Assembly: GCA_947632405.1 (NCBI GenBank)
Contig: CANRPE010000012.1
Coordinates: 1 to 37,931 of the forward strand
DNA: 37,931 nucleotides
Reading direction: 5' to 3'
DNA from: an uncultured Bacilli bacterium
GTDB lineage: Bacteria > Bacillota_I > Bacilli_A > RF39 > UBA660
Positions 6,906 to 21,950 of this stretch are shown here, piece after piece. Under the pieces are notes generated by a model. It searched no databases and was not told the DNA's origin. It saw only the letters and a list, made by a program, of their open reading frames with translations. The first letter of the stretch is position 1. Each line of letters opens with the position of its first letter. The position numbers and the translations under genes are program-made.

Positions 6906-8060
6906 ATGAAAAAAATATTAATTTTACTATTATTAGTAATTACACTTATGCCATATTCAGTTTTTGCAGAGGAAAATAAGGAATTAATAGCTAATGCTAC
7001 TAGTGGTTTATTAATGGAACAATCAACTGGTAAAATTATTTATGAGAAAGAAAAAGATAAAAAAGTAGCAGTAGCTTCTATGACAAAGATGGTTGCGCAA
7101 ATAATTATATTAGAAAAAATAGAGGAAGGTAAAATAAATTGGGAAGATATTGTTACTGTCAGTAAAAATGCAGCATCCATGGGTGGATCTCAAATTTATT
7201 TAACAGAATCTGAAAAAATGAGTGTAAAGGATTTATTCAAAGGTATTTCTATGGCAAGTGCTAATGATGCAACAGTTGCAATGGCTGAATATATTGCTGG
7301 AACGGAAGCTAACTTTGTAAAATTAATGAATGAAAAAATAAAAGAATTAGGTCTAAAAAATACGGTTTTTAAGAATAGTACAGGTTTAGATGAAAAGGGT
7401 CATTTTTCAACTGCTAATGATATGGCAGTGATTGCTAGAAATTTATTAAATCATGAAAAAATTTTAGATTTTTCATCAGTTTATGAAGATTATTTAAGAC
7501 AAGATACAGAAAATAAATTTTGGCTTGTCAATACTAATAAATTAGTTAGATTTTATGAAGGAGCAGATGGTTTAAAAACAGGTCATACTGATGCTGCAAA
7601 ATATTGTTTAGCTGCAACAGCTAAAAAAGATGGTATGAGATTAATAGCAATTGTTTTGGGTGAAGAAAATAGTAAAGTTAGAAATAGTGAAGCAATGGCA
7701 TTACTTGATTATGGATTCAATACTAAAAAAATGACGATTGTTAAAGAAAAAGGAAAGACAGTAAAAGAAATTGCGTTTGATAAAGGGGATAAGAAAAAAA
7801 TAGCTATTGCACCAAAATACGATGTGGGAGTTTTAGAAGATAAAACTAGTAATGGAAAAGAATATACATATGATATTAAATTAGATAAAATCCAATTACC
7901 AATAAATCAAGGTGATGTTCTTGGTAAAATTACAGTAAGAGATAAAAATACAGCAATTGCTACAGTAGATTTAGTTTCAAAGACAAATGTACGTAAATTA
8001 AATTACTTTGAAGTGTATCTTCAAACTTTAAAAAATAGTTTTTTAGGAATTGTTAACTAA
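6906..8060 (+). CDS. dacF: D-alanyl-D-alanine carboxypeptidase, S11 family (DacF/PBP5-like)
   Basis: A low-molecular-weight penicillin-binding protein that removes the terminal D-Ala of peptidoglycan. A signal peptide ends at VFA (residue 21). The serine-peptidase motifs are S58-M-T-K61, S118-A-N120 and K224-T-G226. The C-terminal beta domain ends in an amphipathic helix that would anchor it to the outer face of the membrane. Length 384 suits DacF/DacA. In Bacillus, dacF directly precedes spoIIA; here three genes lie between it and the SpoIIAA-like gene, so the symbol rests on partial synteny plus family. The RBS is AGGAGG. A strong hairpin terminator follows. Confidence 0.9.
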   Translation: MKKILILLLLVITLMPYSVFAEENKELIANATSGLLMEQSTGKIIYEKEKDKKVAVASMTKMVAQIIILEKIEEGKINWEDIVTVSKNAASMGGSQIYLTESEKMSVKDLFKGISMASANDATVAMAEYIAGTEANFVKLMNEKIKELGLKNTVFKNSTGLDEKGHFSTANDMAVIARNLLNHEKILDFSSVYEDYLRQDTENKFWLVNTNKLVRFYEGADGLKTGHTDAAKYCLAATAKKDGMRLIAIVLGEENSKVRNSEAMALLDYGFNTKKMTIVKEKGKTVKEIAFDKGDKKKIAIAPKYDVGVLEDKTSNGKEYTYDIKLDKIQLPINQGDVLGKITVRDKNTAIATVDLVSKTNVRKLNYFEVYLQTLKNSFLGIVN

Positions 8061-11298: not shown

Positions 11299-11324
11299 AG
11301 AAATAAGCAATTATTTCTTTTTTT
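11299..11324 (+). terminator. Terminator after the YjdF-like gene
   Basis: AGAAATAA (11299-11306) pairs with TTATTTCT (11311-11318) around GCAA, followed by seven T. Its T tract runs into the first Spo0A-box-like site. Confidence 0.8.
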
Positions 11325-11356
11325 GTCGAAGAAAAAAATTAGAAAGTTTTGTCGAA
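11322..11356 (+). promoter_or_regulatory. Two Spo0A-box-like sites upstream of the SpoIIAA/SigF-like genes
   Basis: TTTGTCGAA occurs twice in the same orientation, at 11322-11330 and 11348-11356, 26 bases apart start to start. This equals the published Spo0A box (TTTGTCGAA / TGNCGAA). In Bacillus the spoIIA operon is directly activated by phosphorylated Spo0A, so position and sequence agree. The sites lie 55-89 bases upstream of the STAS start. Confidence 0.75.
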
Positions 11357-11383
11357 TTACAACATAAGAAAAGTAATTTATAT

Positions 11384-11389
11384 TATACT
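11384..11389 (+). promoter_or_regulatory. -10 element for the STAS/sigma transcript
   Basis: TATACT at 11384-11389, 22 bases before the start codon. No good sigma-A -35 exists at the right spacing, and I see no clear sigma-H pattern. Both facts fit a promoter that needs an activator at the upstream boxes. Confidence 0.45.
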
Positions 11390-11410
11390 TGCGATAACTG
11401 AGGTGATAAT

Positions 11411-11749
11411 ATGTTAAAGATAGAAGAAGGAGTAGAAAGAGGAATTCTTTTTATCGCATTAGAAGGAAAATTAAATTCTAAAACATTTACTACCTTGGTA
11501 AATGAGATAAATTATCTCCTTTATCATCAAGGAATATCTAATTTTGTTTTTGATTTCACTTATATTTCTAAAGTAGAAGATAATATATTTTCTAAGATAC
11601 AAAGTAAGTTGGTTGAAATATTTTTAAATTGTGGAAAGGTGGTTATGTGTGGTATGTCTGATATCAATAAAAAGAAAATAGGTTATACAAAGGATCGATT
11701 ATTTTATGTTAACTATAAGATGGAAGCATTTGATTATTTAAGGATGTAG
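11411..11749 (+). CDS. STAS-domain protein, SpoIIAA-like, without the usual phospho-serine
   Basis: The 112-residue protein has the length and strand-helix order of a SpoIIAA anti-anti-sigma factor: GILFIALEGKLNSKTF, then SNFVFDFTYISKV, then GKVVMCGM. In Bacillus SpoIIAA the segment after the third strand is FMDSSGLG and its second Ser is phosphorylated by SpoIIAB. Here the aligned segment reads KVEDNIFS, so both Ser and the Gly are gone, with Asp-Asn at the Ser-Ser position. The gene lies directly before the sigma gene, with Spo0A-like boxes upstream, which keeps the SpoIIAA identification likely by context. It is probably a diverged SpoIIAA; classical phosphorylation at this site is not possible. 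RBS GAGGTGATAAT. Confidence 0.7.
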   Translation: MLKIEEGVERGILFIALEGKLNSKTFTTLVNEINYLLYHQGISNFVFDFTYISKVEDNIFSKIQSKLVEIFLNCGKVVMCGMSDINKKKIGYTKDRLFYVNYKMEAFDYLRM

Positions 11750-11754
11750 ATACT

Positions 11755-12396
11755 ATTTTAGATGAAATTATTCAAAATGAAAATCTAGTATATAGTATTA
11801 TTAATAAATATAAGACTTACTGTGATAAAGAAGATTTATATCAAGTAGGTATGATAGGTTTAATCGATGCTTCTAAGCATTTTGATCCTAATGTAGGAGT
11901 AAAATTTTCAACTTATGCATATACTTATGTTTTGGGAGAAGTTACTAAATATATACGAGAAAATAAAAATTTAAGACTTAGTAGAGATATGATTCGACTC
12001 AAGACAAATATAGAAAAGACAAGAGATTTACTAAGACAAAAATTATATAGAGAACCAACTAATTTAGAAATATCACTTATATTAGAAATAGATGAATCTA
12101 AAATTGATGAAATAGAAAATATTAGTGCTCAAGTAAAAAGCCTAGATTATTCTAATGATGAAGAAAAAGATAATTTATATAATTCTATTAAAGTAGTAGA
12201 AAAAAAGATGAGTCCTAGTATATTAGATTTAGAAGAAGAAATATCAAAACTTTCTCAAGAAGAAAAACAAATTATCTATTTTAGATATTACTATGATATG
12301 ACCCAATCAGAAATTTCAGAAAAATTGGGAATGAGTCAAGTTCAGATATCAAGAAAAGAATCAAAAATCTTAAAAAAATTAAAAACTAAATTATAG
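11755..12396 (+). CDS. sigF: SigF-like RNA polymerase sigma factor (sigma-70 family, sporulation type)
   Basis: Regions 2 to 4 are present. Region 2 reads LVYSIINKY..DLYQVGMIGLIDASKHFDP, then VKFSTYAYTYVLGEVTKYIREN. Region 3 has SRDMIRLKTNI. Region 4 has IIYFRYYYDMTQSEISEKLGMSQVQISRKE, the helix-turn-helix. The gene follows the STAS gene directly, as sigF follows spoIIAB in Bacillus. The first ATG in frame (11851) would delete region 2.1, yet the upstream frame, open from 11734, clearly encodes it and contains no ATG, GTG or TTG. I mark the start at ATT 11755, ten bases after AAGGA, as the least bad choice. A -1 frameshift from the STAS frame is the alternative. SigF is favoured over SigG by position only. 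Confidence 0.75.
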   Translation: MLDEIIQNENLVYSIINKYKTYCDKEDLYQVGMIGLIDASKHFDPNVGVKFSTYAYTYVLGEVTKYIRENKNLRLSRDMIRLKTNIEKTRDLLRQKLYREPTNLEISLILEIDESKIDEIENISAQVKSLDYSNDEEKDNLYNSIKVVEKKMSPSILDLEEEISKLSQEEKQIIYFRYYYDMTQSEISEKLGMSQVQISRKESKILKKLKTKL

Positions 12397-12908: not shown

Positions 12909-13943
12909 ATGAGGAAAAAATTAAGCTTATTAATATTACTAGTAGCAGCAATTATGATTCCAACTTGTGTAAGTGCTGCAACAACCTCACAATATATTAC
13001 ATTAGGGGAGGCAACAAGTGAAGGTGAGTTTGGTTCTGTATCATTTACTGCCAAAGCTGATGTAGCTGCAAATGATATTAAAGTTCAACCAGTTTTGTGT
13101 AAAGATGATTATAAGTGTAAAAATGGTACATACCAAAATATAGAAAATGAAGAACAATATCCACTTGGTTTAGAAACAATTAAAGATGGTTTAGTAGTTG
13201 GACAAACATATTCAATTGGTTATTCTGCTGAACATATAGATGTGTTTAATGCAATTACAATTACTATTGGTAATGAACGTATATTAATTGGACTTCCTTT
13301 TGGTGATGAATCTGCTACTATGACAGTTTTCAAAATTAGTGAAAATGATGAAGATGCAAGTGCTGATGAGCTAGAAAGTACAACTGTTGAAAAACAAAAA
13401 GTTGCTGATCAAACATTACTAGATATGATAAAAGAAAGTCAATCACCATATCAAGTTAATGCTACTGATAATTCTTACACTTGGATATTTGATGGTTCTA
13501 AAATGGACTCTACTGATTTTAATGTTAATTTAACATTAGCTGTAGGTGTTAGTCAAAATCAAAAGAAGATTGAAAATTTAATACCTGTAGGAAAAGATAA
13601 TCCATTATATTTACATTTTGATCATCATGGAAATCTACCAAAAGGAACTAGTGTAAGAGTTAGAGTATCAGATAAATATAAAAATGGTGAAAATCTAACT
13701 TTATATTACTATAATGAAGATACTGGAAAACTTGAAGAAGTAGCTAAATCATTAGTAGTGAAAGATGGGTACGTAACATTTGCATTAGAACATTGTAGTG
13801 ATTATGTTTTAGCAAGTAATGATAACTCAAATAATCCTCAAACATCTTCTATAAATACTACTATATATACAATCATTTCACTAGTTTCATTAATAGGTGG
13901 AATTATATGTGTAATAATTATTCGTAAAAAGAAAATAGCTTAA
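12909..13943 (+). CDS. Surface protein with NPQTS class B sortase signal
   Basis: A signal peptide (residues 1-24, ending CVSAA) opens a 344-residue secreted protein. The body is a beta-rich acidic region with two cysteines close together (VLCKDDYKCKNG, near residue 60). The C-terminus has the sorting signal N309-P-Q-T-S313, then a membrane helix (about 320-338) and IRKKKIA. NPQT(N/S) is the known recognition motif of class B sortases, and a class B sortase is encoded 24 bases downstream. I see no NEAT haem-binding domain, so an iron role like that of IsdC is not supported. Near the C-terminus a segment GTSVRVRVSDKYKNGENLTLYYYNEDTGKLEE looks like a small beta-sandwich repeat. Ligand unknown. 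Confidence 0.8.
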   Translation: MRKKLSLLILLVAAIMIPTCVSAATTSQYITLGEATSEGEFGSVSFTAKADVAANDIKVQPVLCKDDYKCKNGTYQNIENEEQYPLGLETIKDGLVVGQTYSIGYSAEHIDVFNAITITIGNERILIGLPFGDESATMTVFKISENDEDASADELESTTVEKQKVADQTLLDMIKESQSPYQVNATDNSYTWIFDGSKMDSTDFNVNLTLAVGVSQNQKKIENLIPVGKDNPLYLHFDHHGNLPKGTSVRVRVSDKYKNGENLTLYYYNEDTGKLEEVAKSLVVKDGYVTFALEHCSDYVLASNDNSNNPQTSSINTTIYTIISLVSLIGGIICVIIIRKKKIA

Positions 13944-13960
13944 TGCTATTTCTTTTATTT
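13933..13960 (+). terminator. Weak hairpin between surface protein and sortase B
   Basis: AAATAGC (13933-13939) pairs with GCTATTT (13945-13951), then CTTTTATTT. It may act as a partial terminator that keeps sortase lower than substrate. Confidence 0.5.
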
Positions 13961-13967
13961 AAGGTAT

Positions 13968-14717
13968 ATGAAAAGATTAAGATTAAAGAAAGCTAATTTA
14001 TTTTTACTTTGTTTCATTATCATATTCATTTATTCAACCACTAAATTAATTTTTCATTATAAAGATTTGTATACGAATAAAAAAAATCATGATAATCTAA
14101 TAAAAAAAGTAATAAAGAAATCTAAAAGCAATGATAGTGAAGTAGTAGAAGAAGAAAATATAGATTTTAATGAATTGTTATCTATAAATCCTGATACAAA
14201 AGGATGGATTAGATATAATCAAAAAAAAATAAATTATCCAATTGTTCAAACAACTGACAATAAATACTATTTAACACATACATTTGAAAAGAAATACAAT
14301 ACTGCAGGAGCAATATTTATGGATTATAGAAACGATTATCTTAATGATCAGAATGTTATACTATATGGTCATGCAATGGATGATGGGACAATGTTTGGTT
14401 CATTAGAAGATATGGATAACAATAATTTTTTTGAAAATGATGCAAATAATTATATAGAAATACTAACAATTGATAATAAATTAATAAAATATCAGATATT
14501 TAGTTATTATATTATAAAAAAAGAAGATTACTATATAACAACTTCATTTAATAATGAAGCTTTATATCAAGAATTTATAAATATAATAATGAGAAGAAGC
14601 AAAAGAAACTTTAATGTAGAAGTTAATGTAGGAGATAAAATTCTTACACTATCGACATGTTATGGTATAGGTAATACTAAAAACAGGAGAGTCATACATG
14701 CTAAAATGATAAATTGA
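13968..14717 (+). CDS. srtB: Class B sortase
   Basis: A membrane transpeptidase that cleaves NPQT(N/S)-type signals and links the protein to peptidoglycan. One N-terminal membrane helix (about residues 11-30), a charged linker, then the class B core begins NPDTKGWIRYNQKKINYPIVQTTDNKYYL. Catalytic residues are His135 (YGHAMDDGTMFG), Cys231 (LSTCYG) and Arg241 (NRRVIHAK), with the ten-residue Cys-Arg spacing of the class. Length 249 is normal. The start ATG 13968 has only a modest AAGG RBS. Its substrate is almost certainly the upstream NPQTS protein. Confidence 0.93.
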   Translation: MKRLRLKKANLFLLCFIIIFIYSTTKLIFHYKDLYTNKKNHDNLIKKVIKKSKSNDSEVVEEENIDFNELLSINPDTKGWIRYNQKKINYPIVQTTDNKYYLTHTFEKKYNTAGAIFMDYRNDYLNDQNVILYGHAMDDGTMFGSLEDMDNNNFFENDANNYIEILTIDNKLIKYQIFSYYIIKKEDYYITTSFNNEALYQEFINIIMRRSKRNFNVEVNVGDKILTLSTCYGIGNTKNRRVIHAKMIN

Positions 14718-14943: not shown

Positions 14944-14987
14944 GTATAAAGTAAAAAATAAGTTTCATATTAATAATGGTGATAATT

Positions 14988-15431
14988 ATGTTAAATAAAA
15001 AGTATGAAAAGATAGTTAAAAATAATGAGGCTAAAGAAACAAGGACAAGGAATGCATTTATTGCCTTTATAGTTGGAGGTTTAGTTGGTTTAATTGGAGA
15101 GGGAATTATTGAATTACTTTGTTATTATTTTAAGATTTCTCGAAGTGATGCATCTACATATATGATAGTTATTTTAATCTTTATAGCATCGTTATCTACA
15201 GCACTGGGTTTTTTTGATAAATTAGTTACAAAATTTAAATGTGGACTTTTAATTCCTATTACAGGTTTTGCTCACTCAATGACAAGTGCTACACTTGATT
15301 ATAAAAAAGAAGGACCTATTAGTGGTTTTGGCTCTAATATGTTTAAATTAGCAGGATCCGTTATTCTCTATGGAGTTGTTTCAGCTTGGATTTTTGGTTT
15401 AATTCGCTATTTATTAGGAGGGGTTTTATGA
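14988..15431 (+). CDS. spoVAC: Stage V sporulation protein AC
   Basis: An inner spore-membrane protein of the SpoVA channel that takes up dipicolinic acid during sporulation and releases it on germination. Start chosen at ATG 14988, after GGTGATAATT; an upstream ATG (14976) overlaps this RBS. The N-terminus YEKIVKNNEAKE is followed by four membrane segments. The motif LITPI/LLIPITGFAHSMTSATLDYKKEGPISGFGSNMFKLAGSVILYG is characteristic of SpoVAC/SpoVAE (here at about 92-135). Length 147. It overlaps spoVAD by four bases. SpoVAA and SpoVAB are not found nearby. Confidence 0.95.
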   Translation: MLNKKYEKIVKNNEAKETRTRNAFIAFIVGGLVGLIGEGIIELLCYYFKISRSDASTYMIVILIFIASLSTALGFFDKLVTKFKCGLLIPITGFAHSMTSATLDYKKEGPISGFGSNMFKLAGSVILYGVVSAWIFGLIRYLLGGVL

Positions 15432-16420
15432 CATTTACTTATAAAAATGTATATATTAAAGATACGGCAACAGTTTCTGGTCCATATGAAAAAGATGGCC
15501 CTTTAGGACAGTATTTTGATAAGAGTTATGATGATTTATATTTTGGAACTACTTCATGGGAATTAGCAGAACAAAAATTAGTAGAAGAAAGTATAAATAT
15601 ATTATTAAAAAAATTAAAATCAAAAAAAGAAAATATTGATTTAGTTATTGGAGGAGATTTGTCTAATCAAATTACTGCAACAACATTTGGTTCTAAAGAT
15701 ATAAATTCAGCATTTCTTGGAGTATATGATGCATGTGCTACTAGTGCAGAAGAATTAATAATAGCAAGTAACATGATAGATAATAAAAACATAAATAATG
15801 CACTATGTGTTACGTCATCACATAATATGGTTAGTGAAAAACAATTTAGAAATCCTACAGAATATGGAGCTCCTAAGCCACATGGAGCAACATTTACAGC
15901 AACAGGAGCAGCTTCAATACTTTTAACTAGCGAAAAAACAAATGTTAAAATTGAATCATCTACGATCGGAAAATTAATTGACTATAATCAATCTGATCCT
16001 AATAACATGGGAGCAGCAATGTCTGGAGCGGCAGCTTATACTATTAATAAACATTTAAAAGATTTAGGTAGAAAGCCAGAATATTATGATTTAATTTTAA
16101 CAGGAGATTTAGGAAAATATGGTAAAAATATTTTAATGGAATTTTTAAATGAAGAATACAAAATAGATATTTCAAAAAATTATAATGATTGTGGAGTAAT
16201 GTTATATGATTTAGAAAAACAAGAAGAATGTTTAGCAGGAGGTAGTGGTCCAGTCTGTAGTTGCTTAGTAAATTATTCATTAATTTATCAAAAGCTAAAG
16301 AAAAAAGAAATAAAAAGGGTATTACTTGTTCCAACAGGTGCAATGTATTCCCCAACAACATTATTTCAAGGACAAAATATTTTAAGCATTGCACATGCAA
16401 TTAGTTTGGAGGTGGTATAA
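15428..16420 (+). CDS. spoVAD: Stage V sporulation protein AD
   Basis: The DPA-binding, thiolase-fold component of the SpoVA complex, bound to the outer face of the inner spore membrane. Start chosen at ATG 15428, right after AGGAGGGG and overlapping the spoVAC stop; this gives 330 residues (Bacillus 338). It has the family's VGGDLSNQIT, the CATSAEEL thiolase-like Cys site, HNMVSEKQFRNPTEYG, GAAMSGAAA and DCGVMLYD, and ends PTGAMYSPTTLFQGQNILSIAHAISL. It is translationally coupled on both sides. Confidence 0.96.
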   Translation: MTFTYKNVYIKDTATVSGPYEKDGPLGQYFDKSYDDLYFGTTSWELAEQKLVEESINILLKKLKSKKENIDLVIGGDLSNQITATTFGSKDINSAFLGVYDACATSAEELIIASNMIDNKNINNALCVTSSHNMVSEKQFRNPTEYGAPKPHGATFTATGAASILLTSEKTNVKIESSTIGKLIDYNQSDPNNMGAAMSGAAAYTINKHLKDLGRKPEYYDLILTGDLGKYGKNILMEFLNEEYKIDISKNYNDCGVMLYDLEKQEECLAGGSGPVCSCLVNYSLIYQKLKKKEIKRVLLVPTGAMYSPTTLFQGQNILSIAHAISLEVV

Positions 16421-16770
16421 TGTTACTTTTGAATTCATTCTTATTTTGCGGTTTAATTTGCTTAATTTCTCAAATAATTCTAGATAATACTAAACTAACG
16501 CCAGGTCATATTACAAGTATATTAGTAGTTATTGGGGCTTTTTTAGATTCATTTAGTTTATATGATAAAATTATTGTAAAAGTAGGAGGCGGAGCTATGG
16601 TTCCAATTACTAGTTTTGGACACTCTTTAGTTCATGGAGCTTTAGCAGAAGCAAATCATTTAGGAATTATGGGAATTGTAGCAGGAATGTTTGATTTAAC
16701 TGCTGCAGGAATAACTTCAGCAATTATTTTTTCTTTCTTTTTTGCCCTTATATTTAAACCTAAAAATTAA
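16420..16770 (+). CDS. spoVAE: Stage V sporulation protein AE (SpoVAEb type)
   Basis: A four-helix membrane protein of the SpoVA DPA channel, paralogous to SpoVAC. The ATG shares its A with the spoVAD stop (TAATG). The family motif VGGGAMVPITSFGHSLVHGALAEA lies at about residues 50-73. Length 116 matches the family. It ends the spoVA operon at a bidirectional terminator. Confidence 0.95.
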   Translation: MLLLNSFLFCGLICLISQIILDNTKLTPGHITSILVVIGAFLDSFSLYDKIIVKVGGGAMVPITSFGHSLVHGALAEANHLGIMGIVAGMFDLTAAGITSAIIFSFFFALIFKPKN

Positions 16771-20558: not shown

Positions 20559-21287
20559 ATGAATTTAGATTTAAAAATTAATGAATTTGAAGGACCTCTT
20601 GACTTGTTACTTCATCTTATTAAAGAAAATAAAATGGATATTTTTAATATTCAAATAGAAGAAATTACAAATCAATATTTAGAATATATTCATAAACAAG
20701 AACAGATGAATCTAGAAATTGATAGTGAATATTTAGTATTAGCATCAGAATTAATAGAGATAAAATCAAAGCTTTTACTTCCAAAAGAAAAATTAGACAC
20801 AGAGGAAGAAGAAATAGATCCTCGAGAAGAATTAATAAATCGTTTACTTGAATATGAAACATATAAAGAAATAACAAAAACTTTAAAAGAAAAAGAACAA
20901 ATTAGAATGGAAATATATACAAAAGCTCCTAGCGATATTACTAATTATGTAGAAGATATGTCAAATGTTAATATGGATGTTAATTTAGATGATTTAATTG
21001 ATGCTTTTCAAAAATTTTTAGAAAGACAACAAAAATTAAAACCTCTAGCTACTAAAATAACTTCAAGTGAAATTACTGTTTCATCTAGAAAAAGTGATAT
21101 TAGAAGAATCTTAAATAAACAAAAAAAAATATCTTTCTTTAAATTATTTCCAATTTATTCAAAAGAATATGTAGTCGCAACTTTTTTGGCAATTCTTGAA
21201 ATGGCAAAAAATAAAGAATTAATAATTACTCAAAATGATACTTTTGATGATATTATTTGTGAAATGACAATTGGAAAAAATAATTAA
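20559..21287 (+). CDS. scpA: Segregation and condensation protein A
   Basis: The kleisin subunit of the bacterial SMC condensin, needed for chromosome compaction and segregation. The N-terminus FEGPLDLLLHLIKENKMDIFNIQIEEITNQYLEYI is the family signature, and the C-terminal winged helix is present (VVATFLAILEMAKNKELIITQNDTFDDI). Length 242 is normal. RBS GAGGAGG. scpB follows after 66 bases. Confidence 0.96.
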   Translation: MNLDLKINEFEGPLDLLLHLIKENKMDIFNIQIEEITNQYLEYIHKQEQMNLEIDSEYLVLASELIEIKSKLLLPKEKLDTEEEEIDPREELINRLLEYETYKEITKTLKEKEQIRMEIYTKAPSDITNYVEDMSNVNMDVNLDDLIDAFQKFLERQQKLKPLATKITSSEITVSSRKSDIRRILNKQKKISFFKLFPIYSKEYVVATFLAILEMAKNKELIITQNDTFDDIICEMTIGKNN

Positions 21288-21353
21288 AGTTTTTAAATTA
21301 ATTTTATACTTTTTAGTGAATTTAAAGATTAAAAGAAAGGATGTTAGATAGTT

Positions 21354-21950
21354 ATGAAAAATTTAGCAGTATTAGAAGGACTTTTATTTGTAATGGGTGA
21401 AGAAGGTTTAACTCTAGATCAAATCAAAGATGTTTTAGATATAACAGAAGAAGAATCAAAACTATTATTAAAAAGTTTAAGAGAACAATATGAAGATGAG
21501 GGTAGAGGTTTAAGAATAGATTTTTTAGGTAATCGTTTTAAATTAACAACAAAGTTTGAACATAAGGATTATTATCAAAAATTGATTGAAAATCCTAATA
21601 CAAATACACTTAGTCAAGCTGCTTTAGAAACTTTAGCTATAATTGCATATAATGAACCTATAACTAGAATAAAAGTAGATGAGTTAAGAGGAGTTTCTAG
21701 TGGTCAATTAATTAGAAAATTAGTTGCAAAGGGATTTATTAAGGAAGTAGGTCGAAGTGATATGCCTGGTAAACCTATTATTTATGAAACTACTAGTGAA
21801 TTTTTAGATTACTTTGGGCTTCCTAATATAGAAGCTTTACCAGATATGTCACAATTTATTCATGATAGAGAAGAAATTGAAACTGATGAAGAAAAGGATT
21901 TATATCAATCAAAATATAGAGAGTTAAAAGATGTATCAATTGATGCTTGA
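21354..21950 (+). CDS. scpB: Segregation and condensation protein B
   Basis: The SMC-ScpAB complex subunit that binds ScpA as a dimer of paired winged helices. Seen: LEGLLFVMGEEGLTLDQIKDVL, then NRFKLTTK, LSQAALETLAIIAYNEPITRIKVDELRGVSS and a C-terminal FLDYFGLPNIEALPD. Length 198 is normal. RBS AAAGGATG. tRNA-Leu follows. Confidence 0.97.
   Translation: MKNLAVLEGLLFVMGEEGLTLDQIKDVLDITEEESKLLLKSLREQYEDEGRGLRIDFLGNRFKLTTKFEHKDYYQKLIENPNTNTLSQAALETLAIIAYNEPITRIKVDELRGVSSGQLIRKLVAKGFIKEVGRSDMPGKPIIYETTSEFLDYFGLPNIEALPDMSQFIHDREEIETDEEKDLYQSKYRELKDVSIDA

Follow-up and report, generated by a model that had tools for sequence, protein, structure and literature searches.

A spoIIA-like operon of an RF39 gut bacterium that has probably lost the SpoIIAB partner switch, with upstream Spo0A boxes and candidate non-canonical sigma-F start codons

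The textbook illustration of how two cells with identical DNA come to different fates is the SpoIIAA-SpoIIAB-SpoIIE partner switch that activates sigma-F. We analysed a stretch of 37,931 nucleotides (the window), which is contig 12 of a genome of 1.35 Mb (54 contigs, completeness 96.5%), and the explanation that we favour, as probable rather than certain, is that its STAS and sigma genes form a spoIIA operon, in a gut bacterium of RF39 (class Bacilli), from which this partner switch has been lost, with sigma-F now being governed mainly by the amount and timing of its synthesis. Judged from gene content and alignments, the SpoIIAB kinase, the SpoIIE phosphatase and the phosphorylated serine of SpoIIAA have all been lost, while sigma-F is retained together with the remainder of the sporulation cascade. 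The original prediction had described adjacent STAS and sigma genes with no anti-sigma kinase gene between them, and had proposed from the joint loss of kinase and target serine that sigma-F control takes another route, such as direct STAS-sigma binding or control at translation; the Spo0A boxes upstream of STAS and a sigma gene without ATG, GTG or TTG start had not formed part of it.

The gene order along the window is dacF, STAS, sigma-F, spoVA and scpAB (Table 1), a conserved neighbourhood, and dacF-spoIIA-spoVA-scpAB are the known surroundings of the spoIIA operon in B. subtilis: because these surroundings are shared, the STAS and sigma genes are the positional equivalents of spoIIAA and sigF. 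The best NCBIfam equivalog for the window sigma factor is spore_sigF, at 152.7 bits and hence under the TIGR02885 cut-off of 321.45, and in a tree of sigma-F and SigG the SigG sequences of the family fall inside one SigG clade, with the sigma-F sequences as a separate group. By orthology, that is by synteny and by separation from SigG, the window protein is thus sigma-F. The locus of Candidatus Faecimonas gallistercoris CHK189-3136, a bacterium assigned to the GTDB order RF39 by its authors (PMC8035907), falls in the same sigma-F group as the window, which we accordingly regard as RF39 too. For comparison we used a sample of 145 genomes of the window's family, 113 of which reach 90% completeness with no more than 5% contamination, and a second set of 80 loci from a scan of named genomes; the genomes surveyed are MAGs and are fragmented. 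Two further features of the neighbourhood were observed: between sigF and spoVAC the window encodes a sortase and a putative surface protein that ends in a membrane segment (12909-14717), and in many family members (L013, L017, L020, L025 and L032) the product of the gene preceding STAS measures ~350 aa, has YRY..YY stretches and likewise carries a membrane segment at its C-terminus.

Table 1. Features of the putative spoIIA operon and its surroundings in the window.
Feature	Position	Strand	Basis
DacF-like D-Ala-D-Ala carboxypeptidase (synteny marker)	6906..8060	+	Peptidase_S11 7e-77
Spo0A box 1 (TGTCGAA)	11324..11330	+	exact match
Spo0A box 2 (TGTCGAA), 61 nt ahead of STAS start, conserved position	11350..11356	+	exact match
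-10-like element (TATTAT), approximate	11381..11386	+	coincides with TA-rich block
Shine-Dalgarno of STAS (gaggtga)	11400..11406	+	direct reading
SpoIIAA-type STAS protein, 112 aa	11411..11749	+	SpoIIAA best PDB match of family profile; AlphaFold fold; dN/dS
Asp57 codon at position of phosphorylated Ser58 of SpoIIAA	11579..11581	+	alignment to SpoIIAA
Shine-Dalgarno-like AAGGAT for sigma, within STAS 3' end	11740..11745	+	direct reading
Sigma-F-type sigma factor, inferred non-canonical ATT start	11755..12396 (open frame from 11734)	+	no ATG/GTG/TTG before 11851
spoVAC, spoVAD, spoVAE-type genes (synteny marker)	14976..16770	+	PF03862, PF07451
scpA-scpB (synteny marker)	20559..21950	+	PF02616, PF04079

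Exact TGTCGAA occurs four times in the 38 kb of the window when both strands are counted, and two of these Spo0A boxes lie upstream of STAS. Across the family, 77 of the 85 loci exhibit a box upstream of STAS, nearly always 55-66 nt from the start, while the expectation from shuffled sequences is 0.78 boxes in total over all family loci; control of the STAS-sigma operon by Spo0A therefore appears well supported by boxes that hold a fixed place. Alignment of the upstream regions of 74 loci additionally revealed a TA-rich -10-like block downstream of the Spo0A box. Where STAS has been lost, the box precedes the sigma gene instead.

The STAS protein is a relative of SpoIIAA and not a member of an unrelated family. 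In a search of the family STAS profile against the PDB, SpoIIAA (1auz) came first over its full length (E 2e-20, 111 residues), and the AlphaFold model of the window protein (pLDDT 93) has SpoIIAA chains as its top structural matches (Z ~15.5, rmsd 2.3-2.4 A over 110 residues), other STAS domains ranking little lower; the objection that the protein might belong elsewhere thus did not hold. The window protein itself scores 19.2 bits against TIGR02886, under the cut-off of 114.75, with 23 of 26 STAS relatives matching this model (best E 4e-16) and 45 of 48 family STAS proteins matching the Pfam STAS model. STAS was found in 111 of the 145 family genomes, in a few through weak or short matches alone, and 34 gave no STAS match of any kind. 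In all 85 pairs examined across the family the STAS and sigma genes are neighbours on one strand, and in nearly every pair they abut or overlap, so that the adjacency is not due to chance, although one genome (G009) has a further gene between the two. A second short STAS-like ORF (~80-130 aa) distant from sigma-F was also seen in several family genomes (G009:C43:43295-43498, G024:C6:22238-22471, G155:C46:7818-8009 and others).

The segment KVEDNIFS named in the original prediction is present at residues 54-61 (11570-11593), and alignment to SpoIIAA places Asp57 in the Ser58 column: the window protein has no phosphorylatable serine within a DSSG motif. Among the 85 family STAS proteins this column holds Ser in three and Thr in three, with the flanking residues mostly retained (Asp in 71, Gly in 62). 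The clade of the window shows divergence of the surrounding loop as well. DSSG was found in none of the 59 proteins of a second STAS set and is intact in 11 of 11 outgroup SpoIIAAs. We infer that the aspartate of the window protein may resemble a permanent phosphate.

The chief rival account of what the STAS protein does in such an operon is that STAS is itself the anti-sigma factor and binds sigma-F directly, SpoIIAB having been lost and phosphorylation being no longer needed. This would fit the loss of the phospho-site throughout the family, the adjoining or overlapping genes in the pairs examined, their place in a single operon under Spo0A boxes and the purifying selection on STAS in most of the family. 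In the known switch, however, SpoIIAA contacts SpoIIAB and not the sigma factor, the structures 1th8 and 1til being complexes of AA with AB; a natural STAS-sigma fusion did not turn up, and the presence of STAS requires ~7 changes on the sigma tree. Several of the genomes without STAS keep sigma-F, Spo0A and SpoIIR, which speaks against the same idea. Since STAS was lost repeatedly while sigma-F was kept, it is not indispensable and is unlikely to be the sole control; we regard a direct anti-sigma role as rather unlikely. With regard to individual genomes, six retain sigma-F with no STAS match genome-wide (G016, G021, G023, G031, G046 and G048; loci L127-L132), and in the three of these that were checked for both (G016, G021 and G023) Spo0A and SpoIIR are retained. 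Less probable again is that STAS is a remnant with no part in sigma-F control, kept just for translational coupling or by inertia: the multiple losses, the diverged phospho-site (with its surrounding loop in the window's clade) and the stop-start overlap typical of coupling would agree with this, but STAS evolves with a dN/dS of ~0.1-0.3 and its conserved blocks span many genera, so the protein itself is maintained by selection.

The claim that no kinase gene fits between STAS and sigma was borne out: the open frame of sigma begins 13 nt ahead of the STAS stop, leaving no room for spoIIAB, and a gene of the right size was absent between STAS and sigma-F in all 85 family loci. The genome-wide search that the original prediction called for gave the same picture. 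In the window's genome the sole GHKL matches of the SpoIIAB model fall in ORFs as long as histidine kinases (352-627 aa), with none above cut-off, and the HATPase_c_2 model likewise had no match above cut-off; in the family, 0 of 145 genomes exceeded the SpoIIAB cut-off (135 bits), the highest score among the matches listed being 49 bits. Short-frame candidates for a stand-alone SpoIIAB (G155, G022, G035, G107 and G038) turned out to be histidine kinases, whole or in fragments. It could be argued that SpoIIAB is present but was missed, as the genomes are fragmented MAGs and GHKL domains can diverge past recognition. Against this, the same search that found SpoIIAB in none of the 113 high-quality family genomes was positive in 28 genomes of a class-wide sample of 120 (~157-186 bits), all outside the window's family, and the target serine and the phosphatase are gone along with the gene; we consider a missed SpoIIAB very improbable.

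The loss extends to the phosphatase, beyond the joint loss of kinase and serine first proposed, which proved to be both genome-wide and family-wide. The SpoIIE/PP2C model found nothing in the window's genome nor in 141 of the 145 family genomes; the PP2C matches in G137 and G160 lie within proteins of 625-632 aa, and that in G165 on a contig resembling contamination. Fin (PF10955) was considered as a substitute anti-sigma-F and rejected: none of 60 genomes gave a match above cut-off, nor did the window's own, with B. subtilis positive as control. These anti-sigma searches comprise the SpoIIAB/GHKL, HATPase_c_2 and Fin models, and an anti-sigma factor unrelated to SpoIIAB lies beyond their reach. 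Of the cascade, Spo0A, SigG, SigE and a SigK-like factor are present; SpoIIR was found in every congener and not in the window's own assembly. The SigK-like match of the window's genome (G000:C45:8560-8955) is short, covering 142 aa and profile positions 6-135 where relatives have ~235 aa, and could reflect an interrupted gene, a contig edge or a split.

The sigma gene of the window departs from the B. subtilis pattern in its start codon as well. Its stop-to-stop frame (11734-12396) contains no ATG, GTG or TTG before 11851, and the start chosen by the ORF caller, ATG 11851, falls inside region 2, with the conserved protein beginning upstream; the STAS and sigma genes are therefore closer than they look. 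This internal start was rejected, as the 32 codons preceding it (11755-11850) are conserved and hold part of region 2: their dN/dS of ~0.2 indicates purifying selection and makes it very probable that they are translated. Translation probably starts at ATT 11755, five bases past the STAS stop: the codon at this site is ATT, ATA or ATC in the window, L006 and L007, and it lies behind AAGGA and 4-5 nt past the STAS stop, while sister species read ATGGATG at the site 11740-11745, the first ATG being their sigma start. Among the 85 family loci, 81 show an ATG in the expected start zone, and a canonical sigma start is missing in three cases only, the window species and the two relatives closest to it.

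Amongst the 80 loci from named genomes, two more RF39 clades were found without a canonical sigma start, both also without STAS: L161, L182 and L199 carry the strong Shine-Dalgarno AAGGAGG followed after 8 nt by GTA (the one TTG, in L182, precedes the Shine-Dalgarno). The other clade, L208 and L212, has an equally placed strong AGGAGG, followed after 10 nt by ATA. A scan with the window sigma as the lone query sequence gave no matches. On the sigma tree the start-codon loss requires four changes, and an assembly error was rejected as its cause, given its occurrence in two further clades besides three species of the window's own. The control, nine gene families other than sigma at these loci, yielded four flagged cases in ~400 genes, and closer reading showed an ATG or GTG in three of the four, as compared to 7 of 77 whole sigma genes. 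In 5 of 85 STAS genes (L008, L009 and L018 are examples of such genes) the aligned start codon is likewise ATT or ATA, so that non-canonical starts are a habit of the operon as a whole rather than of sigma alone. A programmed ribosomal frameshift fusing STAS to sigma, for which the 13-nt overlap of the two frames at TTTAAGGATGTAG in the window might speak, was rejected as the least probable of all alternatives: the shift required would be -1 in the window and +1 in L006 and L007, the same codon is ATT, ATA or ATC in the three sister species, and a normal start is also missing from loci without STAS.

Three related RF39 genomes have a sigF that is broken within region 2 into two ORFs (L202:3800-4700, L203:3800-4700 and L184:150-980), with junctions that differ between them (stop-start overlap or short gap) and a conserved downstream half; the window's own sigF is unsplit. 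From the arrangement of these ORFs, a two-chain sigma factor is possible. B. subtilis SigO-RsoA is a split sigma factor with regions 2 and 4 on separate proteins, and thus likewise spreads sigma regions over two proteins, whereas in L184, L202 and L203 it is region 2 itself that the split interrupts.

Returning to control by synthesis as the favoured explanation, the activity switch would be gone and sigma-F would be set by its synthesis: Spo0A~P would turn on transcription of the operon, and coupling to STAS would hold translation of sigma-F low, aided in some clades by a near-cognate start, which for the window and its close relatives would lie just past the STAS stop (AUU in the window). 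In this scheme STAS would be an accessory partner that cannot be phosphorylated, and it might bind directly to sigma-F or to some other protein. Of the other routes first suggested, control at translation gains indirect support from non-canonical sigma starts in three clades, whereas the repeated loss of STAS argues against STAS as the only control. Translational weakening is not a family-wide replacement of the switch, because 81 of the 85 sigma-F genes have ATG, and control by synthesis leaves the forespore-only, compartment-specific activity of sigma-F unaccounted for. A bolder version, which we advance tentatively and would not expect to hold in full, is that in RF39 the partner switch may have been replaced by Spo0A-driven transcription and throttled translation, with near-cognate sigF starts (AUU, AUA, AUC and GUA) evolving repeatedly and with the split sigF of one clade giving two chains that must assemble.

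In comparison with the B. subtilis spoIIA operon (dacF-spoIIAA-spoIIAB-sigF-spoVA), the window shares the neighbourhood, the STAS fold and the upstream Spo0A boxes but lacks spoIIAB, SpoIIE and the phospho-serine; its sigma-F has a shorter N-terminus and, in its clade, no AUG start. The absence of spoIIAB and spoIIE in RF39 is already known in outline, since both have been reported among the genes reduced or absent in this group, with differently regulated spores predicted (PMC10868615); the passages of that study on RF39 are silent on the SpoIIAA serine, operon structure, Spo0A boxes and start codons. In the literature searched we found no description of the serine loss, the fixed Spo0A-box architecture, the recurrent loss of the sigma-F start codon or the split sigF. 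Precedents do exist for low-level translation of this kind: in S. aureus, AUU and AUA starts give ~10% of the expression from AUG in poor medium, and infC, cvfC1 and ccpN exhibit AUU/AUA behind a Shine-Dalgarno that keeps expression low, although these are not sigma factors and initiation was mapped there whilst it is inferred for the window sigma (PMC13009471). Similarly, translation of B. subtilis sigG, a forespore sigma factor, is damped by a weak start codon, as proposed here for sigma-F, but with a GUG start plus a leader hairpin and with anti-sigma control retained (PMC5942855).

These findings bear on the prediction of sporulation: SpoMAG found spoIIAB in all 63 genomes called spore formers and scored RF39 MAGs at 0% (PMC12536801), and predictors tuned to genes like spoIIAB may miscall RF39. 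For the biology of the group, RF39 sigma-F raises a testable question, namely what makes its activity compartment-specific. That common gut bacteria keep Spo0A and sigma-F, E and G but lack all three features of the switch suggests that the switch is dispensable.
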